This document shows, piece by piece, positions 1,065-45,881 of a stretch of DNA of 45,881 nt (positions are counted from its first letter, which is position 1; the number at the start of each line of letters is the position of its first letter). The notes beneath the pieces are model-generated. The model worked only from the letters and a program-made list of their open reading frames with translations. It was not told where the DNA came from and searched no databases. Source of the DNA: a virus; the IMG/VR virus record IMGVR_UViG_3300046507_000232, positions 1 to 45,881 of that record. One strand, given 5' to 3'. Made by a program: the position numbers and the translations under genes.

Positions 1065-3164
1065 TCAGTGCGTGTCAGCCCAGCTTTCGCCAACCGACCA
1101 CTCACTATCGAGCGGGACCCTGAAGCCGTAAGGCTCGCCCGCTTTACGCGCGCAGGCGACAAGGATGTCACCGACTTCCTTTTCGTAGCCCTCGCGGACG
1201 CAGACTTGGATTTCATCGTGTACCCATAGGACGAAGACGAACTTCCCGTTCCACGGGTTGTCCCAATCGTATCCCAGGCGCTCGCAGCATTCCTCGAAAG
1301 CGTCAGCTAACCAACGCTTGCAGATGATTGCTCCAGCGGACTGGATCATGAAGTTGAGTGCGGAGTGATCGGAGCGGATAGGAATGATCCGGCCGTCGAG
1401 ACCGATGATACGTCCCTTGCGAGACACCTGTTCACCAATCTTCTTCTGAAGCGTGCCGAAGCCGTCGATGCGCGTCAGGAAGGCGTTTCTGATCGCCTTG
1501 CCCACTTTGCGCAACAACCTCTCGCCTACGACGCCTTCTCCGAAGAACTTGACGTACAGCTCGATGCCTTCGTCGCCGCCGTTACGCCGCGCGTTGAGCA
1601 AGGCTTCGTAGATAATCTCGCCCGCCTTCTCGTCACCGCAGCCGTAGATGTAGGCGTAGATGAAACGCTTCGACCCGTCCTCGCGAACGATGGTGTGGCA
1701 CTTGTTGTGCTTGTCGCGCTCACCTTCCGCTAGGCCCATGACGTTGGCGTGCAGCCAGTGAGGATCGCCGTCGATGACGACCTTCATGTACTTGCCGTTG
1801 TCGAGCGGGAACAGATAGTGAGCCAACCCGCGCAGCTCTAAGCCTTGCTGGTCAGCGCCTAAGAACTTCCAACCATTCAGCTTCGGCTGGCCCGCGACTG
1901 AGAACAGTTTGCGGAACGCAACGCCGTAAGGCTTCTTCGCGGACGGCACCTGCCCCAGGTTCGGGAACATATGCGCCGCGCGCGACGTGATGGTCCCCAT
2001 GGGGTTGATCACGCCGTGGATCATGCCGTCATCTTTGACGCAGTCGATCAGGGGGTACTTGCTGCTCTTGCCGCCAACGAGTTGCGACAGTCGCTTGTTG
2101 ATCATCAGCAGCTCAGCGAGGCCTTCCATCTCTGGGAAGCGTGCTGAAATACTTTCGATCACTTCTTCGTCCATTGACGGCTTACCGCCATCTGTGAACT
2201 TCGTTGGCTTCCACCCGCGATCCATCAGCACCTTCGAAAGGTGATCCGACGAACCAGGGTTGAACATTACCTGCTTGATCTTGGTGCAGGGATAGCCACG
2301 CACTTCCTGGGGAAACTTGCTGCCCTCGGGAATGCACGTCCAGAAGTCCTCCTGTCCTCCCCAGTATCCCGACTTCTTGTTGGGACGCTTCGGAGTGAAC
2401 AAGGCCTTCGACGGGTTCGGGCTGATGGGTGCATACCAAAAGCCGTAGGTCTCCTTGAGCTTCGTTTCGAGCACGTCTTTGCGTCCGACCAGCTCGGCAT
2501 GAAGCTCACCTGCTTCCTCGCGGTTGAACGGGACGCCCGCCTTCTCCATCGCATCGCATACGCGGGCTACACGATGCTCCAGCTCCACAGCGTCTGGCGA
2601 ATACGCATCCGCCTGCATGTGGTCCCAGAGCGCGAGGTTCGTAGAACGGTCCTGCAGCATGTACTCATGCATGTCCTCGTTCCATTCGCCCCACACGAAC
2701 TCCTGGATTGCCTTCTCGTCCGTGATGCCCTGCGCGATGGCCTGAGCACGACGGAGCTGTGCGTAGTCTCCTTTGGGATTGCCGAGGCGATAGCCCCAGG
2801 CTCCGATGGTGTGTCGCCCCTGATAGTCTCTGCCGGGGGGCATCTTGCCAGCTGCAACGAGTGCCTTGTCTGTCTTCTTCAAGTTCGGGAAGATAAGCCG
2901 CGAGAGGACCATCGTGTCACGCACGAGGACCCCGGGCCTTGGCTTCCACTTCGTCAGCTTCTTGATCAAAGGACCGTCGTGGCGTTGCCAGTTGTGTCCG
3001 ATGATCATGTCTGCTTGGTCGAGGAGCGCGATCATCTGATCGGTCTCACCTGGCTTGAAGTCCCAAGACTTGCTCCTGTCGTCTACGTCAACAAAACAGG
3101 AGCAATGTATCTTGGTGGCATTCGCGACGAACCCGTTGCTTTCGGTGTCGCCTAGTAGTCTCAG
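1065..3164 (-). CDS. DNA polymerase, T7 gp5-like (family A)
   Basis: This is the replicative family A DNA polymerase. The N-terminal 3'-5' exonuclease domain opens with GDTES (exo I). Later come motif A (GADQQGLELRGLAHY, around residue 440), motif B (KRFIYAYIYGCGDEKAGEI) and motif C (WVHDEIQVC), all close to T7 gp5. No ATG, GTG or TTG precedes the exo I motif. A CTG at 3164, overlapping the primase stop as CTGA, gives MRLLGDTES, with the same spacing to the catalytic Asp as T7 (MIVSD). That start yields 699 residues against 704 in T7. The first ATG at 3035 would delete exo I, so I reject it. CTG initiation is inferred. Confidence 0.95.
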   Translation of the reverse strand: MRLLGDTESNGFVANATKIHCSCFVDVDDRSKSWDFKPGETDQMIALLDQADMIIGHNWQRHDGPLIKKLTKWKPRPGVLVRDTMVLSRLIFPNLKKTDKALVAAGKMPPGRDYQGRHTIGAWGYRLGNPKGDYAQLRRAQAIAQGITDEKAIQEFVWGEWNEDMHEYMLQDRSTNLALWDHMQADAYSPDAVELEHRVARVCDAMEKAGVPFNREEAGELHAELVGRKDVLETKLKETYGFWYAPISPNPSKALFTPKRPNKKSGYWGGQEDFWTCIPEGSKFPQEVRGYPCTKIKQVMFNPGSSDHLSKVLMDRGWKPTKFTDGGKPSMDEEVIESISARFPEMEGLAELLMINKRLSQLVGGKSSKYPLIDCVKDDGMIHGVINPMGTITSRAAHMFPNLGQVPSAKKPYGVAFRKLFSVAGQPKLNGWKFLGADQQGLELRGLAHYLFPLDNGKYMKVVIDGDPHWLHANVMGLAEGERDKHNKCHTIVREDGSKRFIYAYIYGCGDEKAGEIIYEALLNARRNGGDEGIELYVKFFGEGVVGERLLRKVGKAIRNAFLTRIDGFGTLQKKIGEQVSRKGRIIGLDGRIIPIRSDHSALNFMIQSAGAIICKRWLADAFEECCERLGYDWDNPWNGKFVFVLWVHDEIQVCVREGYEKEVGDILVACARKAGEPYGFRVPLDSEWSVGESWADTH

Positions 3165-4849
3165 AACTTGATATCCTCTTGCTGATTGTTGGAGGTGACG
3201 TGGGGAGGCGTGATGTCTCCGTCGTCGTCCAGGTCACGAGCACCACCCCCTTCGAACGGTGATGACAATTCGTAATGACCTTTCTCGACGTTCCACTTCA
3301 GCGTATCGGCTTCGCCTGTATCGCCTGTGATGCGACATTTGAGAGAACGAAGCAGAGCGTAGAGCTTCTTGTCGTCGTCCTGCTGGTCTCGCTCGGCCGC
3401 AAGCACGTTGAACGACAGCTGCTCGATGGACGCTGAGCCTCGCAAATCGTTGAGACTGATTTGTCCACCTTCGTTGAAGTTCTTCCCTTGGGAACGCTTG
3501 AGATGCACGATGGCGATGACGCCAACACCCGTCTCCTTCACGAACGACGCGAGACGCGTCATCAGGATGTCGATGTCCTTGCGTTCACCTTCCGAACCGC
3601 TTTCGAGGCCGGACGTGACAATGCTGATGTGGTCGAGCACGATGAACTTGCATCCCGACGCTGCCATGTAGTGCATCATCGTGAGCAGGCGGTCGCTCTT
3701 GAGCGAACCGAAGTGATCGTAGAACAGCATGTTGTCCCAGACGACAGCCGCGAGCGCAGCGTCCCACTGGTCGTCCGTAATGCTCTCAGGGTTCGCTAGG
3801 ATGCTCTTGAGGGGCACGCCGTTGAACAACGCCACGTAGGCGCTGACAGACGTTTCGTTGTCTTCCTCAAGATAGATGTTGCCAATCTTCAGGCCGTGCT
3901 CGACGCGCATGTGATACGCGATGTCTCGCGCAATCGTCGTCTTGCCGATACCTGAGCCTGCGCAGATGGTGGTGACCTCGGCTTCCCGTAGTCCCATCCA
4001 CATGCCGTTCAGCTTCGGATACGGAAGCTCGTAGCCGGCACGCTTCTTTGCCTTCAGGCGCTCCCTAGTGAACTCGCGTCCCTCGCGGATACCATCAGGC
4101 CTCCAGACCTTCGCGTCCCAGAAGGCGCGCACGATGGCTCCAGCGCCGTACTGCTTGTCCATCAGCGTGGCGTTTGCGTCCTTCAGGGGCACGGTCATAA
4201 TCTTGACCTTGCCAATGGGCAGCATGTCGCAGACGCGCTTCAGGGCTTCTTGGCCCTTCTCGTCGTTGTCGAAGCACAGGACGATGCTCTCGAACCTGCA
4301 GAGCTTCTCGTAGTCCTTCTTGATTGCCTTCTCGGCTGAACCCCATCCGTTCGGAAGCGATCCAGTCGGCCACTTGTTCTCGAACACCTGGGAGACCGAC
4401 ATCATGTCAATCTCGCCTTCGGTGATCACCACGGACTTGCCTTTGTCAGGCCACAGCCACGAACCAATGATCCCTGGGTCCTTGCCGGCCGGACCTATCC
4501 AGGTGAAGTTCTTGTCCTTGTCGCGAAACTTTTGCCCGAGGAGTTCGCCGCGATCCCCGATGACGTTCTGAATGTGGACGCGTTCGCCAAAGCGCTCACC
4601 GATTTGATACCTGAACTTCTTGCAGGTCTCCTCAGTGATCCCGCGCTTGATCAGGTCTTCGTATCGACCAGCTACGGGCTTCCAGTCCTTCGGAGCTTCG
4701 GCCTTCGCTGTGGCCGGGGCAGAGCCATCGGCTCGCCCGGGCTTTTCACAGCTGAAGCAGAACGTGCTCCCGTCGTCGTATGTCGCGTTGGCGTCCGACG
4801 ATAGACACTCAGGCCGAGGGCACGGCCCTTTGCTTACTACGGTTCCCAC
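3161..4849 (-). CDS. DNA primase-helicase, T7 gp4-like
   Basis: This bifunctional primase and replicative helicase has 562 residues, close to T7 gp4. An N-terminal zinc-binding region (CPRPEC near residue 10 and CFSC near residue 32) is followed by a TOPRIM fold (EGEIDMMSV; FDNDEKGQEA). A RecA-type helicase follows, with Walker A GSGIGKTT and Walker B FIVLDHISIV. The first zinc pair is spaced C-x4-C instead of the C-x2-C of T7. The start is a GTG at 4849 with AGGAG just upstream. The stop overlaps the inferred polymerase start, so the two are probably translationally coupled. Confidence 0.96.
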   Translation of the reverse strand: MGTVVSKGPCPRPECLSSDANATYDDGSTFCFSCEKPGRADGSAPATAKAEAPKDWKPVAGRYEDLIKRGITEETCKKFRYQIGERFGERVHIQNVIGDRGELLGQKFRDKDKNFTWIGPAGKDPGIIGSWLWPDKGKSVVITEGEIDMMSVSQVFENKWPTGSLPNGWGSAEKAIKKDYEKLCRFESIVLCFDNDEKGQEALKRVCDMLPIGKVKIMTVPLKDANATLMDKQYGAGAIVRAFWDAKVWRPDGIREGREFTRERLKAKKRAGYELPYPKLNGMWMGLREAEVTTICAGSGIGKTTIARDIAYHMRVEHGLKIGNIYLEEDNETSVSAYVALFNGVPLKSILANPESITDDQWDAALAAVVWDNMLFYDHFGSLKSDRLLTMMHYMAASGCKFIVLDHISIVTSGLESGSEGERKDIDILMTRLASFVKETGVGVIAIVHLKRSQGKNFNEGGQISLNDLRGSASIEQLSFNVLAAERDQQDDDKKLYALLRSLKCRITGDTGEADTLKWNVEKGHYELSSPFEGGGARDLDDDGDITPPHVTSNNQQEDIKF

Positions 4850-5301: not shown

Positions 5302-5760
5302 CTACTTTCTCTTTCGGGATTGCTTGATGTCTTGAATCCACGCGGCCGGCACGACGCCTTTGTCCGACCACGTGAAGCCGTGATCGGTCGCCCACTTCGC
5401 GTAGGTCGTCTTGCTGCCTTTGTAGATTGGTGTGGATGCGCGCTGGAAGACGATACGGATGTCCAGCTCAGGATGTTGCTCCTTGAGCAGGATCAGCTTC
5501 TGTCGTTCCTTTGCGCCATCGGTCGATGGTTGCTTAAAGCGAGGATTGCCGCCTCCAAAGCGGCCCTTGGCTTCAATGATGATCGGACAACCGTCGAACG
5601 AGAAGTCGGGAAGGTACTTCGCTTCGCGCTCGGGAACGGTGTAACGTATCCACTGACTTTCGTGGCCATACGCTACACCGTCCGCATCGAGCTGCTCCGC
5701 TACCTTTTTCTCAAGCCCTGACCGGAAGGTAGGCTCGATACTCAGTGCGGGTTTTGACAT
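5302..5760 (-). CDS. Endonuclease I, Holliday junction resolvase (T7 gp3-like)
   Basis: This junction-resolving enzyme debranches replicating and recombining phage DNA before packaging and helps break down host DNA. It has 152 residues against 149 in T7. The PD-(D/E)xK active site is visible as E17 (FRSGLEKKV), D52 (YLPDFSF) and E63-A-K65 (IIIEAKGRF). Its ATG shares one base with the stop of the SSB gene (TGATG), so the two are coupled. The gene lies in the conserved SSB-endonuclease-primase order of T7-like phages. Confidence 0.95.
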   Translation of the reverse strand: MSKPALSIEPTFRSGLEKKVAEQLDADGVAYGHESQWIRYTVPEREAKYLPDFSFDGCPIIIEAKGRFGGGNPRFKQPSTDGAKERQKLILLKEQHPELDIRIVFQRASTPIYKGSKTTYAKWATDHGFTWSDKGVVPAAWIQDIKQSRKRK

Positions 5761-6335
5761 CAGAACGGAATATCGTCGTCCATATCCTGGCTCTGGTGAG
5801 GAGCCGCTGTGGTCGTGTCCGGTTCGTCGTCGGCGTCGTCCCCGTTATAGGTGAAGCCTTCTTCTTCTTCGAAGCGGTTGGCGTCACGCTGTTTGAGGTC
5901 GAGCAGCTGCACGGAGTTGATGTAGAGGTTGATGCCTCCACCGAAGCCCGTGTACGGGTTGACGGTCACGTCCAGCTTGAGGGTTGAACCGCCACCGATG
6001 ACGACCTTCGCGGGGACCTTGTTGCCCTTTGCGTCGAACACGGGCGGACGATACTTCTCACCCGAGGTCGCTTCCAGATGAAGCTCCCCGGTTTTCTTAT
6101 CCTTCTTCCACGGCAGCTTGCCGTCTTCCAGGTCGAAGTCCTTCAGCTGCTGCTTCAGGTAGTCATCGACCTTGCGGAAGTTCACGTCGTCGAACTTGAT
6201 ACGCGTGATGTACCGACGTTTCTCAGCGCCGCTCGGACGCCCCTTCTTGTCGGTCGGCTGGTAGACATCGACTTCGTTCAGCTTGGGCCAAACGGCGATG
6301 CCTTTGGGAAGGATAATCGTAACTTTCTTCGTCAT
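5760..6335 (-). CDS. Single-stranded DNA-binding protein, gp2.5-like
   Basis: This 191-residue protein fits the T7 gp2.5 type of ssDNA-binding protein. A beta-rich OB-fold region (residues about 5-145) contains FDDVNFRKVDDYLKQQLKD and a VNPYTGFGGGINLYINSVQ strand pair. It is followed by an acidic disordered tail ending DMDDDIPF, which in this class contacts the polymerase and helicase. It precedes endonuclease I in the same operon. A 90-bp leader upstream holds a GACGCG/CGCGTC hairpin. Confidence 0.9.
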   Translation of the reverse strand: MTKKVTIILPKGIAVWPKLNEVDVYQPTDKKGRPSGAEKRRYITRIKFDDVNFRKVDDYLKQQLKDFDLEDGKLPWKKDKKTGELHLEATSGEKYRPPVFDAKGNKVPAKVVIGGGSTLKLDVTVNPYTGFGGGINLYINSVQLLDLKQRDANRFEEEEGFTYNGDDADDEPDTTTAAPHQSQDMDDDIPF

Positions 6336-11788: not shown

Positions 11789-11876
11789 CGGGGGACGGTT
11801 CCTTTCGATGCGGCGACGAGCGCCTCGGTGCGGTAGTGGGTGGGCTTGGCGGCTAAGTGCTTGAACACTCGGAAGT

Positions 11877-11923
11877 ATCATACGGAGGTGAGGTATTTTG
11901 ACACTTGGCAGGTATTTGTTCGA
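11877..11923 (-). promoter_or_regulatory. Putative control region of the RNA polymerase gene
   Basis: On the minus strand this leader holds two direct copies of AAATACCT, CAAATACCTGCC at about 11919-11908 and CAAAATACCTCACC at about 11901-11888, about 19 bp apart. A TATGAT hexamer at 11882-11877 could be a -10 box; no good -35 is seen, so an activator or a phage-type promoter is possible. The first copy is part of a 19-bp element repeated at 18377-18395. Confidence 0.4.
11905..11923 (-). repeat. 19-bp repeated element, copy 1
   Basis: The minus strand reads TCGAACAAATACCTGCCAA. It matches the element at 18377-18395 in 18 of 19 bases. Both copies lie in gaps directly upstream of minus-strand genes, so a promoter or operator role is likely. 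It could also be an arm site for the integrase because attP is 80 bp away. Confidence 0.7.
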
Positions 11924-11946
11924 AAAGAAGCCCGCCGAAGCGGGCC
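11921..11946 (-). terminator. Rho-independent terminator between integrase/attP and RNA polymerase
   Basis: On the minus strand GCCCGC-TTCG-GCGGGC forms a perfect 6-bp stem with a stable UUCG tetraloop, followed by TTCTTTT. It stops transcripts coming from the integrase side before they reach the RNA polymerase gene. In an integrated prophage it would remain on the polymerase side of the attachment site. Confidence 0.85.
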
Positions 11947-12002
11947 TCTGCAGTCTCTATAGGGATCAAAACTACTTTTACAAGGCGCAGCTATTTGCAG
12001 CT

Positions 12003-12064
12003 CGGTCTTGAAAACCGGCGCTCCTTAATTGGAGCCGAGGGTTCGAATCCCTCTCCTTCCGCCA
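12003..12064 (+). other. attP core: 3' part of tRNA-Ser(UGA)
   Basis: The sequence can be folded as the 3' two thirds of tRNA-Ser: anticodon arm with UGA (CGGT-CTTGAAA-ACCG), long variable arm GCTCC-TTAATT-GGAGC (12020-12035), T arm GAGGG-TTCGAAT-CCCTC (12037-12053), acceptor strand TCCTTCC, discriminator G and CCA (12062-12064). The matching 5' acceptor strand (GGAAGGA) and D arm are absent upstream. A partial tRNA 10 bp from the integrase stop is the classical attP layout, in which integration rebuilds the host tRNA. It is not a functional tRNA on its own. Confidence 0.85.
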
Positions 12065-12073
12065 CCAGCAAAA

Positions 12074-13222
12074 TCAAGCACTTCGCGTGATGCTCAGAAC
12101 ACGTGCTGTCTCCGCTGGAGCGCGGTCCCCACGGGAACGCTCAACTTTTTTTGCCGCTTCAAGTTGATCCTCGGTGTCCACGTGGTCGTACATCATGGAC
12201 GCCTGAATGCTCTTATGCCCCAGCATTTGCATGCGAATTTTCATATCGACGCCCTGCTTCCGCAGACGCGTGTTGCGTGTGTGGCGCAGGCTGTGGATCA
12301 CAAGGTTCGACGGATACCCACAGATTTTCGCTGCAGTCTTGAATTGGTTTAACAATCGGTATCTTTTCGGCAGCTGCCCAGACGCGATTATCGCTCTGAT
12401 TTCGCGAGCAAGTTCCGGTCTGATGTAGACCGTTCTGGCATCATTGTTCTTGGTCTGATCCTCGTGGAGAACAAGCCAGCCGACCGCCTCCTCGCCCTCC
12501 TGCTCGACGATGATTTGCGCGGGCGTCAGCCGCGTTAGCAGCTCACTGAGGCGCAGGCCCGTCTCGACCAGCACACGGACGCACACGGCCTCCACGTGGT
12601 GTCCACGGCTCTCCATGACGCGTAGGATTGCGTCCTCCTGGTCGTAGCTCTGCAGGATCGCGCGCTTGCGCCGCGTCTGCTTCTCGGGGAGCAGAGGGAT
12701 CGCGGGCTTGAACGGGATGACCCGATTGAGCACGGCGAACTGCAGCACGGCTCCAGCGGCGTTCAGGTAGCGGTTGATGGTGGCCGGGCTGAGCTTGTCA
12801 GCGCCAGCCTGCGGTCCCCTGAGCTTCCCCGTGGCGCTCGGCGGGCGCTTCTCCAAGCTCTCGACGATTTGCTCCATGGTGTCGCGTGTCACGTCCCCGA
12901 TGTCCACGTCACCGATCACGCTGACGCAATAGTCCACGCGCTGGATGATGCTGCAGTCGCGGCCGGCGTGCCATTTCTTCTTCGGCCCTCCCGCCTTCTT
13001 GCAGTCCTCAGCGACCTCGCGGAACGTCCGGCCAGTTCCGAGAGGCTGCAGCGTTGGCGGCTCCTCGCCCATCAGCTTGACGTAGGTCTCATAGCCCTGC
13101 GCGGCCTTCATCGTGTCGAAGCGACGACGAAAGCGCTTCTGCGGCTTCCCCTTGGGCGTGACGAGGGCTTCGCCGTAGAACCCCCCCGTCAGCTTGCCGT
13201 CTCGTTTCTCAGCGTATGCCAT
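12074..13222 (-). CDS. int: Tyrosine recombinase, phage integrase
   Basis: This 382-residue integrase has all catalytic residues: R224 (TGLRLSELL), K258 (DQTKNN), H310-x-x-R313 (HSLRHTR), H336 (LGHKS) and Y345 (MMYDHV). Residues about 65-170 form the core-binding domain. The basic N-terminus (GKPQKRFRRRFD) may bind arm sites. It should catalyse recombination between attP at 12003-12064 and a host tRNA-Ser gene. Its ATG overlaps the stop of the 54-residue gene (TAATG), so it is co-translated downstream of the repressor. Confidence 0.96.
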   Translation of the reverse strand: MAYAEKRDGKLTGGFYGEALVTPKGKPQKRFRRRFDTMKAAQGYETYVKLMGEEPPTLQPLGTGRTFREVAEDCKKAGGPKKKWHAGRDCSIIQRVDYCVSVIGDVDIGDVTRDTMEQIVESLEKRPPSATGKLRGPQAGADKLSPATINRYLNAAGAVLQFAVLNRVIPFKPAIPLLPEKQTRRKRAILQSYDQEDAILRVMESRGHHVEAVCVRVLVETGLRLSELLTRLTPAQIIVEQEGEEAVGWLVLHEDQTKNNDARTVYIRPELAREIRAIIASGQLPKRYRLLNQFKTAAKICGYPSNLVIHSLRHTRNTRLRKQGVDMKIRMQMLGHKSIQASMMYDHVDTEDQLEAAKKVERSRGDRAPAETARVLSITRSA

Positions 13223-13386
13223 TAGGTGCTCCTGCCCTTGATCACGGCGTCCTCGACAGCCACGGCCCCGACGTAGAGGCCGCGCAGCCTCGCGTGGTCG
13301 CTGGTGGCCTCCAGCTGCGTCTTGTAAGTACCAAGCACCAGAAACTCGGTGCGGTCAGCGTTGAAGAAAACGATGTTGACGTACAT
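13222..13386 (-). CDS. Small protein between repressor and integrase, 54 aa
   Basis: The ORF starts MYVNIVFFNADRTEFLVLGT four bases after the repressor stop and ends in a TAA that overlaps the integrase ATG. It has an N-terminal beta-strand pattern and a helical middle (KTQLEATSDHARLRGLYVGA). Its position suggests a directionality factor or an accessory of the integrase, but it is not obviously basic or winged-helix-like as most excisionases are. Function is unproven. Confidence 0.7.
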   Translation of the reverse strand: MYVNIVFFNADRTEFLVLGTYKTQLEATSDHARLRGLYVGAVAVEDAVIKGRST

Positions 13387-13390
13387 CTTC

Positions 13391-13801
13391 TTAGGTCCCC
13401 TTTCGCTTGCGGGGCTTCATGGCGGCTATGCTGGCGATTAGCTTGGCTATCGCATAGCGCACCTTCTTGTCGGAGATGGTGCCAAACGCTTCGACGATAT
13501 GTTGTCCTTGCGAGGTTCCCATGAACTCGATCAGATACTGAGGCATTTCCCCATCGACATGAACTCCGTCAGCTCCGTCGAAGAAGAAAGCAGGAGGCAC
13601 CTGCAGGAAGTCCCCAATCTGCTGCAGACGTTTGGCGCTCACACTGTTTGCCCCCTTCTCATACTTCTGCACCTGTTGGAACGTAAGACCGATTGCCTCG
13701 GCAAGCTCCGTTTGGCTCTTGTGTTGCATGATGCGGCGCATACGGATGCGACTGCCAACATGCTTAGCTACAGGATCAGGAACTCGTGGTGCGGTTGCCA
13801 T
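13391..13801 (-). CDS. XRE-family transcriptional repressor, 136 aa
   Basis: The N-terminal helix-turn-helix domain (about residues 13-70) reads VGSRIRMRRIMQHKSQTELA then IGLTFQQVQKYEKG and LQVPPAFFF. This is the pattern of XRE regulators common in Alphaproteobacteria. The C-terminal part (residues 85-136) is helical and ends in a basic tail (MKPRKRKGT), without a visible protease domain of LexA/CI type. It is the best candidate for the lysogeny repressor and heads the operon with the 54-residue ORF and integrase. AAGGAG lies upstream of the ATG. Confidence 0.88.
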   Translation of the reverse strand: MATAPRVPDPVAKHVGSRIRMRRIMQHKSQTELAEAIGLTFQQVQKYEKGANSVSAKRLQQIGDFLQVPPAFFFDGADGVHVDGEMPQYLIEFMGTSQGQHIVEAFGTISDKKVRYAIAKLIASIAAMKPRKRKGT

Positions 13802-13880
13802 TGGTATCTCCTTATGACGTGTGGTGATTAAATACTACTGCGCGTCAAGATACTTCCTCTTGTGTTGCATTAGGACGTAG

Positions 13881-13901
13881 TGAGGCCTTGGTTAGGCCTC
13901 A
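13881..13901. terminator. Hairpin between lipoprotein and repressor genes
   Basis: TGAGGCCT and AGGCCTCA form a perfect 8-bp stem around a 5-base loop. No strong T-run follows on either strand, so this is a weak terminator, an attenuator or an operator. It lies in the only sizeable gap (13802-13920) of this part of the arm, where the repressor promoter should also lie. Confidence 0.5.
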
Positions 13902-13920
13902 GCGTATTACTTTCGAGTAG

Positions 13921-14193
13921 TCAGCAACTCATGCCGGCAGCTTGGCTTCCAATGCCACACAGCGGGTTACGTCCCGACTGGATGATCGTGGTGCCTCCCG
14001 AAGCTCGCAACGAGCGTTGCCTTTCGTATTCCATCAGGTTGCCTCGGCACTCCTGATAGGCGTTCGGCCTCTTGTCGTTTCGCTCAGCAACGATCCGACG
14101 ACACGCCATATCGTCTGCGGTCTCTCGCTCAGCAGGTGATTTAGCGCAGCCAACTAACAGCAGCAGCGCCAGGGTGTAGCTTAAGGGTCTCAT
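13921..14193 (-). CDS. Small lipoprotein, 90 aa
   Basis: MRPLSYTLALLLLVGCAKSP is a lipoprotein signal with lipobox LVGC. The mature part is polar and contains five further cysteines (MACRR, QECRG, NPLCG, MSC end), suggesting disulfides in the periplasm. Its ATG overlaps the stop of the MarR-like gene (ATGA). Prophage lipoproteins of this size can block superinfection, but this is only a possibility here. Confidence 0.75.
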   Translation of the reverse strand: MRPLSYTLALLLLVGCAKSPAERETADDMACRRIVAERNDKRPNAYQECRGNLMEYERQRSLRASGGTTIIQSGRNPLCGIGSQAAGMSC

Positions 14194-14576
14194 TGGTTCT
14201 CTTTCTCCTTCGGGATGGTGCGCAACGCGTTCATGATCTTCCTCATGAGAGCCTTGCCAAGGGGTGTGACCCTAGCGTGATGTCGCCTAAGGTCGTTCGG
14301 GTTGCGCTCTTGCGTAATGAGACCGAAGCCTTCTTCGCGTGCACGATTGCGCTCCCCTAGATCAAGCAAGTGCCGCGTCATCACAGTTGGACTGATACCC
14401 GCCGCTTGCGCATACTCCGTGACGTTCTTTCCTTCTTCAGTAGCCACTTGTAGAAACGTATAAACGTACTGAAGGGGCATCGTTGCACGGATGTCGCGGA
14501 AAGGTTCGAGCGCGAGGAGCAGCGCTCTGGCATAGGCCTTTTCCTCTGGCGTGAGGGCGGGCTTGAAGTCTGACAT
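14190..14576 (-). CDS. MarR-like winged-helix regulator, 128 aa
   Basis: The segment MPLQYVYTFLQVATEEGKNVTE, then YAQAAGISPTVMTRHLLDLG (HTH) and LITQERNPNDLRRHHARVTP (wing) fits the MarR fold, including the 'N..D.R...V..T..G' wing signature. I place the start at 14576, with AGGAG five bases upstream, and not at 14630. It is a second regulator in addition to the XRE repressor and may act on the palindrome at 14784-14798 upstream of its own operon. Confidence 0.8.
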   Translation of the reverse strand: MSDFKPALTPEEKAYARALLLALEPFRDIRATMPLQYVYTFLQVATEEGKNVTEYAQAAGISPTVMTRHLLDLGERNRAREEGFGLITQERNPNDLRRHHARVTPLGKALMRKIMNALRTIPKEKENQ

Positions 14577-14634
14577 CTTGTCTCCTAAGGATCGCACTAA
14601 ATACGCGTGTGCCGGGATGCTGTCCAACATGCGA

Positions 14635-14757: not shown

Positions 14758-14781
14758 TGAATACCTCCTCCTGAAACTATC

Positions 14782-14810: not shown

Positions 14811-14816
14811 CAACCC

Positions 14817-15269: not shown

Positions 15270-15271
15270 TA

Positions 15272-19637: not shown

Positions 19638-20001
19638 GAATTGGGCAGGTTTGGGCTGTTTTGCTGCAATATCAATAGGTTACAGGTCAAGCCCACCCAC
19701 TAGTGCACTAGGGGCCGACAGATGTCCCTTATTCCCGCCACATTGCCATTCCTCGCCGCACTTGACCTTGCGAGGGGGTAAGGGGGAGCCAAGGTTCCAT
19801 TGGTTCTCCCCATCTGCCCTAAGGTAGATGTCCATTGATAATACAACCAACACCTTCTCAGGGGTGCCCCAAGGTATCCCTAAGGACCTCCAGATCACGG
19901 TGAGGCCCTTAGGCATCCCTTGGGATCATTAGTCGTCGCAGCATGCGGTGTTAACCGCGATAGCGCTGCCTCTCTCCATTTCATCAACACGAAAACATTG
20001 G

Positions 20002-28511: not shown

Positions 28512-29050
28512 AGAACACGCGGGGACCTCGAAAGAAGTCCTCGCGGACCAAAGGCAAACACAAGCGTCCCGGAGTGTCCTCAACATTGAAGGCACTCTGG
28601 GAGACGCCTGAGTTTCGTGAGCGCATGAAGAAGCGCGATGCAGAACGTATCGCTGCAGCGAAACTCCACCCCGAGAAATTCTGGCGCAGAGGCGTCCCTG
28701 ATGGGATGCGAAAGCGTGACGCGGCTCCGTTATGGGCACGCGCAAATCAACTTGCAGATAGGTTTATCGACATCATGAAAGACGTAGGCGAACTTCAGGC
28801 CGACGAAATCGTCTTGCTGACCAACGCGGAAGGCAAGGTCACCCAAGTCTCCGTTCCAGCAAACGACGCCGGCAAGGCTGAGTTGGCTCTGCGTGAAGCC
28901 TTCGTGCTCGCAGTAGGACCTTCTGAGCAGAAGGTGAAAATCCAAGCGATCAACACCGTGCTCAACTTCACGAAGTCGAAGCCCGAGAGCAAGTCGAAGC
29001 TGACGCTCAACAAGGCCGAGGACTTCCTCGACGCCATCGAAAATGACTGA
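28499..29050 (+). CDS. Terminase small subunit, 183 aa
   Basis: This protein directly precedes and overlaps the large terminase, the standard place for TerS. The N-terminus is very basic (NTRGPRKKSSRTKGKHKRPG), followed by helical segments (DAERIAAAKLHPEKFWRRGV; AEDFLDAIEND at the end). It should recognise phage DNA for packaging. The start is a GTG at 28499. The call rests mainly on context; the sequence does not show a well-known TerS family clearly. Confidence 0.7.
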   Translation: MAAIKNTRGPRKKSSRTKGKHKRPGVSSTLKALWETPEFRERMKKRDAERIAAAKLHPEKFWRRGVPDGMRKRDAAPLWARANQLADRFIDIMKDVGELQADEIVLLTNAEGKVTQVSVPANDAGKAELALREAFVLAVGPSEQKVKIQAINTVLNFTKSKPESKSKLTLNKAEDFLDAIEND

Positions 29051-30716
29051 AGAAGAAAGTCTAACCCCAGAGCAGCGCGCCAAGCGCAAACGATTACGGG
29101 ATGACTTCGAATACTACGCCAAGCACTGCGTAAAGATTAGGACGAAGCAGGGCAAGATTGCTCCTCTCGTCCTCAATCGCGTGCAGAAGCGCTTCCTGAA
29201 AAAGGTTCTCGACCAATGGGAGCGCACAGGACGCGTCCGCATGGTGGTGCTCAAGGCGCGCCAGCAAGGTCTTTCGACCGTCATCTCCGCTATTCAGTAT
29301 TGGTGGCTGTCACAGCGTAAGGCCCAGAAGGGTCTCGTGATGGCCCACGAGGGCGACAGCACGACAACGCTCCTCGATATGTATAGGCGCATTCACGACA
29401 ACGTGCCTGACATCGTGCGGCCGGGAACGAAGTATCTCTCTCGTAACGAGTTGAACTTCGACAAGCTCGACAGCGGCATGCGCGTGGCGACAGCTGGTGG
29501 CCGGGGTATCGGTCGCGGCGAAACGCTTACGTTCGCGCATCTATCCGAGGTCGCGTTCTGGCCTGTCGCATTCGCCAACACAAACTTCAACGGACTTGTG
29601 CAGGCCGTTCCCGAGGAAGACGACACGTTCATCTTCCTGGAGAGCACGGCACAAGGTGTGACCGGCAAGTTCTACGAGATGCATCAAGGCGCGATCCGCC
29701 AAGACCAGCTCTGGAACGGATACGAGGTGTTCTTCTCTGCGTGGTTTGAAAGTGACGAGTATCGCTCACCCGCGCCTGCTGATTTCCAGCGAACACCCGA
29801 AGAAGAAGAACTGATCGCACAATTCTACGACCAGGGCCTCACGTCGAACGATCAGCTGTACTGGCGTCGTAAGAAAGTGGGCACCAGCGGTCTCGACTTG
29901 TTCAAGCAGGAATACCCTGCGACCCCAGAGGAAGCCTTCCTCTCCACTGGTCGTCCTATCTTCGACACCGACAGCCTCAACAGGCGTCTGCAGAAAGCCA
30001 AGGCAACGCCGCCTCTGCAGCGGATGGTGGTCGATGAAGCGTATGACGAGAAGACCGGCCGGCCTCTGCCGCTCCGCGTACTCCGCGAGAACGCCCGGGG
30101 CGAGCTGCTGATCTATCGCAAGCGTGAGGAAACCGAGAGCTACACGATTGGCGCTGACGTAGGCATGGGCATCCGAGGTGGTGTCAAAGGCCGTAAGGAA
30201 GGCGACAGCAGTGTCGCACAAATCCTCGACAGCCAAATGCGTCAGGTCGCCGTATGGCGAGGCATCTGTCATCCCGACGTGTTCGCTAAAATCCTCGTTG
30301 CGTTGGGCTACCACTACAACAGTGCGACCATCGCTCCTGAGCGCAACAACCACGGCCTCGTTACCTGCGTTGCGCTGCGTGATGCGAACTACCCGTACAT
30401 CTACACCGATCAGGTGGAAGGCACGCTGGAGCCTGAGAAGGACACCATCAACATCGGGTTCTTCACGAGCGAACGCACCAAGCCTCTGATCATCGACAAG
30501 CTCCGTGAACTCGACCGCGAAGGCGGCATCGAGATTAGCGACCCCGCGACGTTGCAAGAAATGATGACGTTCGTGGTCACTGAAAACGGAAAGATGGAAG
30601 CCGAAGGCGGCACACATGACGATTGCGTCATGGCCCTCGCCATCGCCGCGTATGTCCACGAAGGCCGTTGGTCTCCCGTGGAGAACCTCGACGAATTTTA
30701 CACCGAAGCAATTTAA
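29043..30716 (+). CDS. terL: Terminase large subunit, 557 aa
   Basis: The packaging motor ATPase and nuclease. The Walker A-like P-loop is KARQQGLST (residues 71-79), Walker B lies at TLTFAHLSEVAF (161-172) and a coupling motif at IFLESTAQG. The nuclease domain opens with YTIGADVGMGI and closes with HDDCVMALAI near residue 535. The sequence looks nearer to P22/Sf6/BPP-1-style terminases than to T7 gp19, and the gene stands upstream of the portal instead of at the end of the late arm. Confidence 0.93.
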   Translation: MTEEESLTPEQRAKRKRLRDDFEYYAKHCVKIRTKQGKIAPLVLNRVQKRFLKKVLDQWERTGRVRMVVLKARQQGLSTVISAIQYWWLSQRKAQKGLVMAHEGDSTTTLLDMYRRIHDNVPDIVRPGTKYLSRNELNFDKLDSGMRVATAGGRGIGRGETLTFAHLSEVAFWPVAFANTNFNGLVQAVPEEDDTFIFLESTAQGVTGKFYEMHQGAIRQDQLWNGYEVFFSAWFESDEYRSPAPADFQRTPEEEELIAQFYDQGLTSNDQLYWRRKKVGTSGLDLFKQEYPATPEEAFLSTGRPIFDTDSLNRRLQKAKATPPLQRMVVDEAYDEKTGRPLPLRVLRENARGELLIYRKREETESYTIGADVGMGIRGGVKGRKEGDSSVAQILDSQMRQVAVWRGICHPDVFAKILVALGYHYNSATIAPERNNHGLVTCVALRDANYPYIYTDQVEGTLEPEKDTINIGFFTSERTKPLIIDKLRELDREGGIEISDPATLQEMMTFVVTENGKMEAEGGTHDDCVMALAIAAYVHEGRWSPVENLDEFYTEAI

Positions 30717-30728: not shown

Positions 30729-32789
30729 ATGGCGAAGAAGCCAACCACTCTTACGGATGAAGAAATCCTAACCAAGGTTTCCGCCAAGTCCACCAACAGC
30801 GTCAGCTGGTTTGACAGTCGCCTCGCAAAAGAGCGCGAGCGCGTCACCCGCTACCTCAATGGTGATCTTCCAAAGCGGACCTCGGAAGGCTCCTCGTCTT
30901 ACGTTTCATCTGACGTGTTCGACAGCACGGAAATGATGCGCTCACAGTTGGTCGAGACATTCGCTGGTGGCGATCACATCGCCCAGTTCGATCCTGACCA
31001 GGACATGAACGCTGAAGTCTGCCGCGTGGCGACTGAGTATGCGTCGTACATCATCTTCCGAGAGAACGACGGCTACAACATATTCAACAGCGTCATCTAC
31101 GACGGGCTGACCGCTCGCGCAGGTGTCGCGAAGGTCTATTGGGAAGAACGCTACACCTACAGCGAGGAGACGTTCGAAGACCTGTCGCATGATGAAGCCT
31201 ACGGGCTTGCATCGCAGGACGACGTTGACGAGTTCGAAGCTGACGAAAGCGAAGTCGGTAGCGGCATCTACAGCGGCACCCTCACTCGCAAGAAGGATTG
31301 CTCCAGGGTTTGCATCGACACGATTGCGCCTGAGGAGTTCCTGATCGAACCGTTGGCTACCAGCATTCTGCTGGCGACCTACGTTGGTCATCGCACGCCG
31401 AAGACCAAGGCTGAGCTGATCGAAATGGGCTTTGACAAACACAAGGTCATGAACCTGCCGGCTGACGACGCCAAGGAGCTGCAGTTCAGCCCTGAGGTGC
31501 TCGCCCGCACGCGTTCCGTAAACGGCGAAGGCAAGACTGACGAGCCGATCCAGGACGAGCTTGAGTACGTCGTCTATTACGAGAGCTACGTCCGAATGCA
31601 GATTGACGCCGTCAAAGGCGTTCGTCTCTACAAGGTCTGCCACGCCGGCAACACCCTGTTGGACAAGCCGCAGGAAGTCGATAAGGCCCCCTTCCTCGCC
31701 TACGTTCCGCTGCCGATCCCGCACGTCTTCTACGGCAACAGCTTCGCAGCCCGAGTGATCCACACGCAGAACGCACGCACCGTGCTGTTCCGTGGCGTGC
31801 TCGATCACACCGCGATCACGACCAACCCACGTTGGGCTGTGGTCAATGGTGGCCTGCTGAACCCTCGTGAGCTGCTCGACAACCGCCTCGGCGGCGTCGT
31901 CAACGTCCGCAGGCCGGACAGCGTCAAAGCGTTCGAGCAAAACCCGCTGAACCCTTACGTGTTCAACGTCCTCGAAAAGCTGACTGAGAACAACGACAAG
32001 TCCACGGGCATCTCCGCGCTATCGCAGGGACTGAACAAGGACGCCATCTCCACGCAGAACTCAAAGGGTCTCGTGGACAACATGATGAAGGCCTCAGGCC
32101 AACGTCAGAAGGTAATGGCCCGCAACTTCGCATACGGCTTCCTCGTCCCGCTTATGATCGAAGTCATCCGACTGGCGATCCTGAATGAGAAGAAGGAGAA
32201 GGTGATCGAAGTCGCTGGTGGTCCGTTGACTGTCAACGCCCAGTCATGGACTGAGCGCCGCACCTGCACCGTCTCTGCTCACCTCGGTTACGGTGAGAAG
32301 GACAATGCAGCGATGGAGCTGACGCAGGGCTACGAAATGATGGCGAAGGATCAAGGCCTCGGCACCATGTTCGGACAGAAGCAGCGTTTCGAACTGCTGC
32401 ACGACGTGGCGAAGCTCAAAGGCTTCAATCGGTTCTCTGCTTACCTCGATCCGAATGCGCCTCCTCCTGGTCCTGACCCGCTCAAGACCCGCGAGCTGGA
32501 CATCAAGGAGAAGGTGGCTGACGCGACCGTGGCTGGTGTCGGCATCAAGCAACAGGATGCTTCTCGTCTCTATGCGCTCGACCAGATGAAGGTCCAGCAG
32601 CATGGGCAGGAGATGGCACTCTCTGCGCTCGATCACGACCGCACCAACGACCGTCAGGACGCTGAGACGGCGTCTCGCATCCAAGTCGATCACGCACAGC
32701 TCGAAATCGAGCGTGAAGGTCTCGACGTGGAACGTCTGAAAGCAGCAGCTGCAGCCAGAGCGAAAGCTCAGCCAAAGGCAGCAGCCTGA
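30729..32789 (+). CDS. Portal protein, 686 aa
   Basis: This protein forms the dodecameric DNA channel. It begins MAKKPTTLTDEEILTKVSAK and has the order and length of large podophage portals of the P22-like type: a wing domain, PFLAYVPLPIPHVFYGNSFA, a stem/clip region near KSTGISALSQGLNKDAIST, and a long charged C-terminal helical barrel (LEIEREGLDVERLKAAAAAR). It follows terL directly. The last base of the stop is shared with the next ATG. Confidence 0.88.
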   Translation: MAKKPTTLTDEEILTKVSAKSTNSVSWFDSRLAKERERVTRYLNGDLPKRTSEGSSSYVSSDVFDSTEMMRSQLVETFAGGDHIAQFDPDQDMNAEVCRVATEYASYIIFRENDGYNIFNSVIYDGLTARAGVAKVYWEERYTYSEETFEDLSHDEAYGLASQDDVDEFEADESEVGSGIYSGTLTRKKDCSRVCIDTIAPEEFLIEPLATSILLATYVGHRTPKTKAELIEMGFDKHKVMNLPADDAKELQFSPEVLARTRSVNGEGKTDEPIQDELEYVVYYESYVRMQIDAVKGVRLYKVCHAGNTLLDKPQEVDKAPFLAYVPLPIPHVFYGNSFAARVIHTQNARTVLFRGVLDHTAITTNPRWAVVNGGLLNPRELLDNRLGGVVNVRRPDSVKAFEQNPLNPYVFNVLEKLTENNDKSTGISALSQGLNKDAISTQNSKGLVDNMMKASGQRQKVMARNFAYGFLVPLMIEVIRLAILNEKKEKVIEVAGGPLTVNAQSWTERRTCTVSAHLGYGEKDNAAMELTQGYEMMAKDQGLGTMFGQKQRFELLHDVAKLKGFNRFSAYLDPNAPPPGPDPLKTRELDIKEKVADATVAGVGIKQQDASRLYALDQMKVQQHGQEMALSALDHDRTNDRQDAETASRIQVDHAQLEIEREGLDVERLKAAAAARAKAQPKAAA

Positions 32790-33650: not shown

Positions 33651-34715
33651 ATGCCTCCCATCCAGATGGACGGAGCTAACGACTACCCCGACGCTATCGA
33701 AACCGACGACGATATCGTCAATGCATTCCTTGCCGATCCCGAAGGGGATGAAGACGCTTCCAAACGGAAGCCATCTGATAAAGGCGCTGACGAAGACGAG
33801 GGTAAAACCTCGGAAGACAAAGACGAGCAGGCCAACGAAGACGAAGTCAACGACGACCAGGACCCCGAGGAAACTCCAGGCGAAGACGACGAAGACGACG
33901 AAAGCGAAGGCACCGAAGACAAGACGAAGGAAAAGAAGTTCGCTGACGACAGCGACGAGACCTACGTCAAGGTAAAGGTAGGCGACGAGGAACACGAAGT
34001 ACCCGTCAAGGACCTGAAGCGTCTCTGGGGCCAAGAGGCTGCTCTCACCCGCAACTCTCAAGAAGTCGCCGAACAACGCAAGACTGTCGAAGCCGACCGC
34101 GCAAAGAATATCGCGGCCTACGACGTGATGCTGAAGCGGACGACTGAGCGCGCAGACGCCTACCGGGCGCTGCCGTGGACACAGCTGTTGAAGGACCCCG
34201 AAGTCCCCGCCGACCAGCTTACGGCCCTGCAGGCCGAAGCTCAGAAGGCGTATGACGAGGAAGCCTTCATCAAGAACGAACTCGATGGCTTCATGAAGAA
34301 GGTCACCGAGGATCAGCGGACTGAGCGTGTCAAGGCTGCAAAGACTTGCATCACGTCTCTCACGAACCCTGAAAGCCCGACGTACATCAAAGGCTGGAGC
34401 AACGCGCTCTACAACGACATTCGCTCGTTCGGCACTGAGATGGGCATCGACAAGGACACGGTGAACTCTCTCACCGATCCTGGTGCATTCAAAATCCTGC
34501 ACATGGCGATGCAATTCCATCGCGGTGCGGCGAAGGTCGTGACCCGAAAGGTCAACAAGACCCCGACACGGATTGTGAAGAACTCGGCATCAGCTCCCGC
34601 TGCTCGTTCGACGGCGAAGACCGTCACCACGAAGACTGCTGTGGCGAAAGCCAAGAAGTCTGGCTCGATGGAAGACGCGGCAAACGCATTCCTCGCCATG
34701 GATGGCGAAGACTAA
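33651..34715 (+). CDS. Scaffolding protein, 354 aa
   Basis: The first 100 residues are extremely acidic (EDEGKTSEDKDEQANEDEVN). A helical middle follows (VAEQRKTVEADRAKNIAAYD; LTALQAEAQKAYDEEAFIKN), with a basic Ala/Lys C-terminus (VTTKTAVAKAKKSGSMEDAA). This charge layout and the place directly before the capsid gene are typical of scaffolding proteins. The basic end probably binds the capsid shell during assembly. Confidence 0.85.
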   Translation: MPPIQMDGANDYPDAIETDDDIVNAFLADPEGDEDASKRKPSDKGADEDEGKTSEDKDEQANEDEVNDDQDPEETPGEDDEDDESEGTEDKTKEKKFADDSDETYVKVKVGDEEHEVPVKDLKRLWGQEAALTRNSQEVAEQRKTVEADRAKNIAAYDVMLKRTTERADAYRALPWTQLLKDPEVPADQLTALQAEAQKAYDEEAFIKNELDGFMKKVTEDQRTERVKAAKTCITSLTNPESPTYIKGWSNALYNDIRSFGTEMGIDKDTVNSLTDPGAFKILHMAMQFHRGAAKVVTRKVNKTPTRIVKNSASAPAARSTAKTVTTKTAVAKAKKSGSMEDAANAFLAMDGED

Positions 34716-34748: not shown

Positions 34749-35660
34749 ATGACCGTTTATCAGACCTACCAGCAGGTCGGCATCAAGGAAGACGTTTCGG
34801 ACGTAATTTCCAACCTGTCGCCGCGCAAGACGCCCTTCCAGAGCGCCATCGGCGGCGAGAAGGTGACCCAGTCGCTGTTCCAGTGGCAGGAAGACAGCCT
34901 GCGCGCTGTGGGCACCAACGCTGCGGTTGACGGCGCGGACGCGACGTTCATCACCGTCGTGCCGACTGTCATGCGTAACAACTACACGCAAATCTTCACC
35001 GAAGCCGTGCAGGTTTCCGACCGGGCCGACGTTGTCTCGACCTACGGCCGCAAGCGCGAGTTCGCCTATCAGATGGCGAAGTCCTCGGCCGCTGTGAAGC
35101 GTGATTTCGAGAACTCCTTGGTCGGCAACGCGCAGGACAAGGCGGCGGGCAACTCCACCACCGCTTCGACCCTCGCTGGCTTCCAGAAGCAGCTCGACAG
35201 CACTTCGATTGTCTACTCGGGCGCGGGCGACGGCACCAAGCCGCTGATCGAAGCCGACCTCGTCACCGCGCTGCAGAAGGCGTATGTGGCTGGTGCGGAC
35301 CCGACCCGCATTCACGTGACCCCGTCGAACTCGGTGGTGCTCGCTGGCTTCGCTTCGGCAGCCGGCCGCTACCGCACCCTGCAGACGGGTGGGAACGACA
35401 AAGCCATCGTGAACGTGGTCAACCTGTACGTCTCGCCGTTCGGTGAGCAGAAGGTTGAAATCAACCGCTTCCAGAAGGCGAAGAACACGCTGATCTTTGA
35501 ACCCGATATGTGGGCGAAGGCGACCCTGCGTCCGTGGGAGCGGAAGAACCTCGCGAAGACTGGCGACAGCACGAAGGCTATGATCCTGGGCGAGTTCTCG
35601 CTCAAGCATAAGAACTTCTTCGCGTCGGCTGCAGTCATCGAAGCGGCTTCCGGATTCTAA
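34749..35660 (+). CDS. Major capsid protein, SU10-like (DUF5309 type), 303 aa
   Basis: The protein starts MTVYQTYQQVGIKEDVSDVI with SNLSPRKTPFQSAIGGEKVT, the characteristic opening of the SU10-like major capsid family (HK97 fold). Further matches in style are QFYR-like TRIHVTPSNSVVLAGFASAA and the C-terminal WAKATLRPWERKNLAKTGDS. It should build the head. T7 capsids (gp10) are of another sequence family, so this marks the head module as non-T7. A terminator follows. Confidence 0.88.
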   Translation: MTVYQTYQQVGIKEDVSDVISNLSPRKTPFQSAIGGEKVTQSLFQWQEDSLRAVGTNAAVDGADATFITVVPTVMRNNYTQIFTEAVQVSDRADVVSTYGRKREFAYQMAKSSAAVKRDFENSLVGNAQDKAAGNSTTASTLAGFQKQLDSTSIVYSGAGDGTKPLIEADLVTALQKAYVAGADPTRIHVTPSNSVVLAGFASAAGRYRTLQTGGNDKAIVNVVNLYVSPFGEQKVEINRFQKAKNTLIFEPDMWAKATLRPWERKNLAKTGDSTKAMILGEFSLKHKNFFASAAVIEAASGF

Positions 35661-36066: not shown

Positions 36067-36711
36067 ATGACCAAAGGCGAAGTCAAGGCCCAGTTTTTGG
36101 ACCTTCTGAACAACAGTATCGTTAGGGGCAAGCCATCACTGGTCGAGACGTTCATCACTCAGGCGATCCTCCGAATCCAGCGTGAGCTACGCGTCCCCTT
36201 CATGGAGAAGGTGATCGAATACACGATCCCTTCCAACTTCATGAAGCTCGCAATCCCCGCAGACCTATTGGCGCTTGTCTCCTTGATGGTCGATACCGAC
36301 AACGACGGCATCTACGATTACCAGCTGCAGCGCGTTGACATGGGACGTGTGGCGCGTGCTTCTCAAGAGACGGGCGTCCCTCCTCAAATCTTTGCGCGCA
36401 AAGGCGGCGACTGGCTTGTAGGACCGAGACCTGGTCCCGGATCAAAAATCGAAATCACCTACTACGCGTCCTTCACACCTCTTGCTGACGACAACGCCAG
36501 CAACACCCTAACGATGGTCGCGTGGGATGCTGTGGTCTACGGAGCCTTGTCGGCCGCGTGTGACTACCTCGACGACGACCGCTTCGAAAAGTACGAGGGC
36601 CGGTACGTCCAAATCGTCAACACCCTTCAAGAACAAGCCGACGCCGACGAGCTGACGGCTGATGCCGCTGTGCGCCCTGCGCTCAGCTACGACGACGGAT
36701 ACGAAGACTAA
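36067..36711 (+). CDS. Head-tail adaptor, 214 aa
   Basis: The protein begins MTKGEVKAQFLDLLNNSIVR and has the layout of podophage adaptor proteins (P22 gp4 / T7 gp11 / SU10 adaptor type): an N-terminal helix bundle with FITQAILRIQRELRVPFMEK, a beta region (IEITYYASFTPLADDNASNT), and a C-terminal helix with a YEGRYVQIVNTLQEQADADE segment. It should join the portal to the tail nozzle. The stop overlaps the next ATG. Confidence 0.75.
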   Translation: MTKGEVKAQFLDLLNNSIVRGKPSLVETFITQAILRIQRELRVPFMEKVIEYTIPSNFMKLAIPADLLALVSLMVDTDNDGIYDYQLQRVDMGRVARASQETGVPPQIFARKGGDWLVGPRPGPGSKIEITYYASFTPLADDNASNTLTMVAWDAVVYGALSAACDYLDDDRFEKYEGRYVQIVNTLQEQADADELTADAAVRPALSYDDGYED

Positions 36712-45024: not shown

Positions 45025-45231
45025 TTATCGTTTCGCTCCCTTGTCAGCGTTCCAACTAAGCGCCCTTTCGGCCGCGCGTATCAGCTCCAGCTTGCGAGAG
45101 CGCAGACGTGACGCCGTCGAGAAGTGAATGACTTGCTGAGCCTTCGTGTCACGCAGCTCCCTGTCGTTCTCGATTATCTCGTCGAACAGAGGGGATCGCG
45201 ATGTGACCGTCGCTACGGGTTTGGTCTCCAT
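45025..45231 (-). CDS. Small protein after the exonuclease, 68 aa
   Basis: The ATG lies inside the last 20 bp of the exonuclease gene. The protein is helical and basic (FDEIIENDRELRDTKAQQVI; RLRSRKLELIRAAERALSWN). It may bind nucleic acid. T7-like phages carry several small genes at this place; none is recognised here. Confidence 0.65.
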   Translation of the reverse strand: METKPVATVTSRSPLFDEIIENDRELRDTKAQQVIHFSTASRLRSRKLELIRAAERALSWNADKGAKR

Positions 45232-45881
45232 AGGATTGGTGCCTTCTTCTCAGCGTCCCAGTCGCTCCAACGCAGGATGCGCGCGAGACGCGCTTGAGTG
45301 ATTGCGTCAGATTCGGTGAGGCCGGCCTTCACGTAGAACGACACCACACCAGCCCACACGTCGTCCGTTGGCTCCTGCTTCCACCGCGTCTCCACGAGAC
45401 CCTTGCGGGGTCCCGACTTGAACGTGTGCTCGTAGGGCTGCCAAATGAACGGTGTGGTCAAGAACTCCTCGGCAATCACAGGGCCGGCTCCTGGACAACC
45501 AGGGTAACCGTCGCTCGTGTCGCCAATCAGCGTCTGGTAGATGTGCCAGCGATCCGCTTCAGCTTCGCTATAGGTCACAAGGTCCTTCCCGTTCCACACA
45601 GTGGTCGGGATGGTCTTCATGTCCTTGTCTTGGCTGACGATGATCTTCTGCGACCGCGTAGGCTGTGTTGCTAGCATGCCCATCACGTCGTCGGCTTCCA
45701 GGGTGGGGAACGACTTGGTCTTGTAGCGGTCCTTCACCTTGTCGAGCATCAGCGCGTAGCACAAAGGCTTGCGCGAGGTGGCGCGGTTGTTCTTGTAGGT
45801 GGGATCGACCCCGAAACGAAAGTTCGGTTGTTCAGAGAAGCACAGCATGTGCTCCTCAGTGTCGAAGCGGTCGAAGTAGCG
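45213..45881 (-). CDS. 5'-3' exonuclease (T7 gp6-like), C-terminal part
   Basis: This continues the gene that starts at 304. Visible motifs are LEADDVMGMLA and IIVSQDKDMK (metal-binding aspartates of the nuclease core), and the helix-hairpin-helix-like LIGDTSDGYPGCPGAGPVIA that contacts DNA. It ends WRPNP at 45213. The 127-base overlap at the right edge repeats codons already present at the left edge, so the full protein is 281 residues. T7 gp6 has 300. Confidence 0.9.
   Translation of the reverse strand, partial: RYFDRFDTEEHMLCFSEQPNFRFGVDPTYKNNRATSRKPLCYALMLDKVKDRYKTKSFPTLEADDVMGMLATQPTRSQKIIVSQDKDMKTIPTTVWNGKDLVTYSEAEADRWHIYQTLIGDTSDGYPGCPGAGPVIAEEFLTTPFIWQPYEHTFKSGPRKGLVETRWKQEPTDDVWAGVVSFYVKAGLTESDAITQARLARILRWSDWDAEKKAPILWRPNP
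45755..45881. repeat. Terminal overlap, right copy
   Basis: Identical to bases 1-127. See the left copy for interpretation: one of the two should be removed for a circular map. Confidence 0.95.

Follow-up and report, generated by a model that had tools for sequence, protein, structure and literature searches.

Temperate phages that encode a T7-type RNA polymerase (RNAP) are already known. Lysogeny of vTRX32-1 in Rhizobium was shown experimentally (PMC8631192) and, as summarized in the LUZ100 paper, lysogeny is known for Pasto in Agrobacterium and for HTVC019P in Pelagibacter (PMC10134795). Annotated temperate phage records with this polymerase are RHEph21, HTVC019P, Pasto, ProddE and YIMV22061. 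Here, these phages are compared with a virus contig of 45,881 bp, analyzed over its full length and referred to as the window. A sequence-only reading of the window had assumed that phages with a T7-like polymerase are mostly lytic and that the integrase-bearing ones are mainly marine. This premise is not borne out, as temperate ones are well described, including in Rhizobium and, by the LUZ100 summary, in Agrobacterium (PMC8631192, PMC10134795).

HTVC019P, RHEph21/Paadamvirus, Pasto, vTRX32-1, LUZ100 and ProddE resemble the window in having a T7-type RNAP beside a tyrosine integrase, together with T7-type replication genes. Several have tRNA-associated att sites and some show the order MarR, integrase, polymerase. 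A MarR-like regulator is found in HTVC019P, RHEph21 and LUZ100, an HTH gene in Pasto and a CI-like repressor in ProddE. However, the RNAP of these temperate T7-like phages is only 26-27% identical to that of the window and belongs to another clade, and ProddE, RHEph21, Pasto and HTVC019P (first 20 kb) have no SU10-type portal or capsid, T7-type ones being annotated instead. Limnohabitans phage YIMV22061 shares the order integrase, tRNA-Leu, RNAP and a MarR-like match, and its RNAP is the closest among the known phages compared (31%). Unlike the window, it has a T7-type head and is annotated as Autographiviridae.

A second group resembles the window in its head. Sinorhizobium phage phiM5 and the phiGT1-type temperate alphaproteobacterial podoviruses carry an integrase and are temperate in Rhizobiales (PMC10386132), and their portal and capsid are of the LUZ24/phiEco32/SU10 type (27% and 37% identical to those of the window). 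Compared with the window, phiM5 lacks a T7-type RNAP and differs in its replication module and terminase. The spontaneously produced podophage ppBeUSDA76-2 (PMC10127595) shares with the window a Bradyrhizobium host, an integrase and an SU10-type capsid (31%) and portal, but has neither the RNAP nor T7-type replication genes. The Bradyrhizobium podophages of that study were rejected as members of the lineage described here, the two examined being without RNAP. No such RNAP was found in the SU10-head phages phiM5, HTVC106P, ppBeUSDA76-2 and four Manatee Spring genomes.

We consider it very probable that the window is a circular, complete podovirus genome, that this virus is a temperate phage of a soil bacterium and that it belongs to a coherent lineage, an explanation that takes in the att, leader, repressor and switch steps set out below. 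The contig carries a 127-bp end repeat. Because the repeat has the identical length in two further contigs of the lineage, it is most likely an assembler overlap, which makes the genome a closed circle with 45,754 bp; a packaging repeat was rejected on the same observation. Early and lysogeny genes lie on the minus strand and structural genes on the plus strand (Table 1). A search of a named phage collection returned no close DNA relatives of note.

Table 1. Features of the window, in order of position
Feature	Position	Strand	Remarks
Family A DNA polymerase (T7 gp5-like)	1065..3035	-	
Primase-helicase (T7 gp4-like)	3161..4849	-	
Endonuclease (endonuclease I-like, gp3-like)	5302..5760	-	matches temperate T7-like phages
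Gp2.5-like ssDNA-binding protein	5760..6335	-	
T7-type single-subunit RNA polymerase, 856 aa	9218..11788	-	catalytic motifs intact; ATG at 11788
Candidate phage-type (T7-like) promoter TTCAAGCACTTAGCCGCCAAGCCCACCCACTACCG	11820..11865	-	upstream of RNAP; function inferred
Intrinsic terminator, 10-bp stem, UUCG loop, U-rich tail	11921..11949	-	-20.7 kcal/mol, z -3.0
Sigma-70-like promoter TTGTAA-N16-TATAGA	11956..11983	-	points at RNAP; chance 0.02
attP core, anticodon stem-loop of tRNA-Ser(UGA), CGGTCTTGAAAACCGGCG	12003..12020	+	identical in Bradyrhizobium tRNA-Ser(UGA)
Phage-borne tRNA-Ser 3' half (variable arm, T arm, acceptor, CCA)	12021..12064	+	completes cloverleaf with host 5' half
Tyrosine integrase	12074..13222	-	PF00589; R-K-H-R-H-Y all present; prophage homologue beside attL in Bradyrhizobium
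XRE/Cro-type DNA-binding protein	13391..13801	-	PF01381; no Pfam domain after HTH; window only
MarR-like regulator	14190..14630	-	conserved in lineage and in temperate T7-like phages
Second candidate phage-type promoter copy	19668..19715	+	before structural operon
Terminase large subunit	29043..30716	+	74% identical in BR 10289 prophage
SU10-type portal protein	30729..32789	+	PF23899 E 5e-151; 77% identical in BR 10289 prophage
Head scaffolding protein	33651..34715	+	
SU10-type major capsid protein	34749..35660	+	PF17236 E 1.5e-77; 75% identical in BR 10289 prophage
SU10-type adaptor protein	36067..36711	+	PF24175
Exonuclease (T7 gp6-like)	45213..45848	-	

The T7-type polymerase named in the sequence-only reading is borne out by matches to PF00940 (E 1.3e-89), phrog_414 (E 4e-185) and the T7 RNAP structure 1aro (E 1.2e-97). 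Its active-site motifs FDGSCSG, VKRNTMTYSYSSK and VHDSFG align with D537, K631/Y639 and H811/D812 of T7 RNAP. A longer reading frame to 11881 is spurious because the relatives begin at the same MDT. In a midpoint-rooted tree the polymerases of the lineage form a separate clade with 100/100 support, apart from the other T7-like polymerases tested. Adjoining the RNAP gene, a small protein starting MKTKTLYHGTSS (8249-8707, minus strand) is kept in four of nine relatives and looks ADP-ribosyltransferase-like by eye.

The head module had also been recognized as SU10-type, correctly given the Pfam matches of portal, capsid and adaptor. The window thus combines the single-subunit RNAP of the Autographiviridae with SU10-type portal, capsid and adaptor in place of the T7-type portal, capsid and tail tube, and with genes divided between both strands rather than following the T7 order on a single one. 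Conversely, absence of a phage single-subunit RNAP was taken as a mark of the SU10/LUZ24/phiEco32-type podoviruses, yet the window encodes one, as do 21 of 33 related IMG/VR records checked, including every close-capsid contig of at least 44 kb; most of the records that lack it are fragments. The capsid search matched 69 IMG/VR loci, and 19 of the 21 RNAP-bearing records encode an integrase. Elsewhere in the structural region, a tail protein (20740-21280, plus strand) contains ~45-bp tandem units rich in HTHTYSGT motifs, like phage tail-collar or fibre repeats. Following the lysis genes, a strong inverted repeat flanked on either side by A and T runs (40794-40846) probably acts as a terminator in both directions.

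Bacterial genomes were scanned for integrated relatives with an RNAP alignment and short peptide patterns, a procedure that returned one locus and that other lysogens may have escaped. This locus is a collinear prophage of ~45.5 kb in tRNA-Trp of Bradyrhizobium sp. BR 10289. About 30 window proteins match it in collinear order, with identities of 57% for RNAP and 46% for the integrase (terminase, portal and capsid in Table 1). The prophage is bounded by identical 43-bp direct repeats (101340-101382 and 146799-146841, 45,459 bp apart), with the integrase just inside one and RNAP just inside the other. These opposite positions are as predicted from an attP that lies between the two genes. About 100 other Bradyrhizobium genomes contain the joined flanks, which represent the empty site, and nearly always a single match spans the junction; in BR 10289 the flanks give two separate matches. 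Two further Bradyrhizobium genomes, G020 and G093, hold collinear prophages, so that the lineage is present in 3 of 266 genomes of this genus; 396 other genomes sampled from the order had only more distant T7-like polymerases. The G093 prophage lies in tRNA-Cys with a 17-bp core. For the G020 prophage, only a 14-bp att core was identified, whose location in a tRNA is not clear, and the scaffold protein match at C1:208042 breaks into two frames, so this copy may be damaged or mis-sequenced.

Thus prophages that combine this RNAP with an integrase exist, in the Alphaproteobacteria that the sequence-only reading had guessed as hosts, and attL/attR repeats flank them at tRNA-Trp (43 bp) and tRNA-Cys (17 bp). 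In the genomes searched, no prophage combined the integrase of the window with the tRNA-Ser site to which that reading pointed. Two other Bradyrhizobium genomes (G118 and G094) were considered as members and rejected: their RNAP is 32-33% identical and they hold other T7-like elements without this head. This second, unrelated T7-like RNAP type (L032-L037) is located in chromosomes, and in G094 a 42-bp direct repeat occurs at tRNA-Val, 45.5 kb apart.

The integrase of the window was said to have all catalytic residues, and all six are present (R224, K258, H310, R313, H336, Y345) and invariant among relatives. Between it and the RNAP gene lies the tRNA-Ser piece that had been read as a partial attP. 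This reading is upheld: neither ARAGORN nor Rfam detected a complete tRNA in the window, as would be the case with a half gene, and the 3' half matches Bradyrhizobium tRNA-Ser(UGA). Identity is ~83% over the whole piece (12003-12064) and 100% only in the core, which equals the host attB core over 18 bp; 12021-12064 is less alike, so that Bradyrhizobium can be named only as the most likely host genus of the window. The host 5' half and the phage 3' half together fold as a complete tRNA-Ser(UGA) cloverleaf with anticodon UGA. The phage would therefore supply its own tRNA 3' half, with only the anticodon arm common to phage and host. G093 offers a parallel, in which the tRNA-Cys anticodon core is common and the 3' halves differ. 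At the same place other relatives carry 5' halves (Ser in G273 and G281, Cys in G284 and G268, Trp in BR 10289; read by eye), so that the core is used in either orientation.

Of the two candidate regulators, the XRE gene that had been proposed as the repressor is real, yet it is absent from all nine complete or near-complete relatives compared, which rules it out as the repressor of the lineage. The predicted conserved regulator is instead the MarR-like gene, which the sequence-only reading left unnamed and which is present, in conserved gene order, in 9 of 9. In hhalign comparisons it matches the corresponding genes of RHEph21 (E 1.7e-14) and HTVC019P (E 9.7e-14), as would a member of the same cassette, and both it and the integrase are homologous to those of RHEph21.

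The leader between attP and RNAP contains, in order, a sigma-70 promoter, a terminator and a candidate phage promoter. Plain scans of 8000-20500 for sigma-70 promoters and terminators did no better than on shuffles, and the leader stood out only through conservation across relatives. The element TTGnnn-N16-TA(T/C)A is found at -166 to -250 from RNAP in 19 upstream regions of the lineage, some of them near-identical, and is lacking in two others; the expectation is 0.8 among all 29 shuffled regions. It is absent from T7-like phages outside the lineage, and a search of RHEph21, Pasto and HTVC019P with looser spacing also found none. The terminator hairpin follows the promoter directly, and a hairpin and then U are found at the matching place in most relatives. 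The sequence CCTATA alone was ruled out as a T7-type initiation box, as it is not repeated at other operons, and fits better as a sigma-70 -10 box.

The two candidate phage-type promoters share an exact 15-mer, CAAGCCCACCCACTA, at 11834-11848 (minus strand) and 19688 (plus strand; chance 0.02). A 32-bp alignable pair is found in the same two places in BR 10289, and in G284 another sequence, of the CCTCAGGGGGTTTAG type, occurs three times. The left part, (T)ATCAAnnnCTTA, is found in most members, whereas the right part differs between phages and agrees within each phage, a pattern we infer to be that expected of promoters following their own polymerase. In G281 and G020 no clear pair could be recognized, and the one in G093 is weak. 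A separate 19-bp repeat, TCGANCAAATACCTGCCAA (one variable base; chance 0.01), occurs at 11905-11923 and 18377-18395, both on the minus strand, upstream of RNAP and of the minus-strand gene at 17708-18346; it may serve as an operator or as a third promoter. In G273 the matching places are occupied by a different pair of repeats.

We tentatively propose, at not quite an even chance, that the lineage carries a conserved lysis-lysogeny switch undescribed for T7-like phages. It would consist of an attP-side sigma-70 promoter, an attenuating terminator and a self-activating phage promoter, such that rare read-through leads to an all-or-none lytic program driven by the phage's own RNAP. LUZ100 has a reported phage-specific promoter for its own RNAP (PMC10134795), so that self-activation is not unique to this lineage; the attenuator before such a promoter is the part for which we have not seen a description. 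It is also possible, though on the doubtful side, that the TTGTAA-N16-TATA element and the hairpin belong to attP, as an integrase arm site and a terminator of the integrase operon, and not to an RNAP leader. In several relatives the word CACTTGTA is repeated next to attP and the -35 box does overlap it, and a terminator after int is ordinary. However, the -10 box and the exact 16-bp spacing are conserved where the flanks have diverged, which an arm site alone would not need, and all elements point at RNAP.

The temperate lifestyle itself could be questioned, if the window were a lytic derivative in which the lysogeny cassette survives as a remnant. RHEph01 has been described as such a lytic phage within the temperate clade that includes vTRX32-1 (PMC8631192), and the window has an XRE gene that its relatives lack. 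We regard this as unlikely: integrase, MarR, attP core and RNAP leader are all intact, the integrase is kept in 19 of 21 relatives, and close relatives are integrated in chromosomes. The data support a window phage that is temperate by descent and by its intact integrase, as the sequence-only reading had it, with the integrated relative in BR 10289, its attL/attR and the empty site in sister genomes behind this view. Less probable still is that it is merely another temperate Autographiviridae phage of the Pasto/RHEph21 type. Such a phage would show the MarR-integrase-RNAP order and T7-type replication genes seen here, and the primase-helicase is 47% identical to that of RHEph21, but ProddE, YIMV22061, RHEph21 and Pasto contain no match to the portal, capsid, scaffold and adaptor, which are of the SU10/LUZ24 type, and the RNAP lies in its own fully supported clade.

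Taking the window as a temperate phage with an RNAP leader, the integrase would recombine the anticodon arm of a host tRNA, here tRNA-Ser(UGA), with attP, and the host tRNA would stay intact because the phage supplies its own 3' half. Integration would place integrase and RNAP at opposite ends of the prophage, the topology seen in the relatives. In the prophage, RNAP would remain under a host sigma-70 promoter. Most transcripts from this promoter would end at the terminator ahead of the gene, and repressors (the MarR-like protein and, in the window, perhaps XRE as well) would keep RNAP off. Once read-through suffices, RNAP may transcribe its own gene from the phage promoter and then fire the structural operon from the second copy.

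The lineage joins the MarR-integrase-attP-RNAP order and the gp2.5-, gp3-, gp4-, gp5- and gp6-like genes of temperate T7-like phages to an SU10/LUZ24-type head. The sequence-only reading had suspected that the combination of RNAP and SU10-type head was undescribed and, as far as we searched, no named phage examined has both. No description of RNAP, integrase and SU10-type head together was found in the full-text literature searched, whose coverage leaves out most subscription journals. What seems new is therefore the T7-like lysogeny and RNAP module on an SU10/LUZ24-type head, as a Bradyrhizobium lineage.

These results show that, in temperate T7-like phages, the module of early and lysogeny genes is able to move as a unit and become joined to a head of quite another kind, a finding that bears on whether lytic T7 phages descend from temperate mosaic ancestors. 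For Bradyrhizobium, an agriculturally important symbiont, they define a group of prophages that look intact and whose att sites are known. With the conserved leader, the question of how a prophage silences a self-amplifying polymerase becomes concrete and testable, and the lineage would supply several new RNAP/promoter pairs with different specificity.
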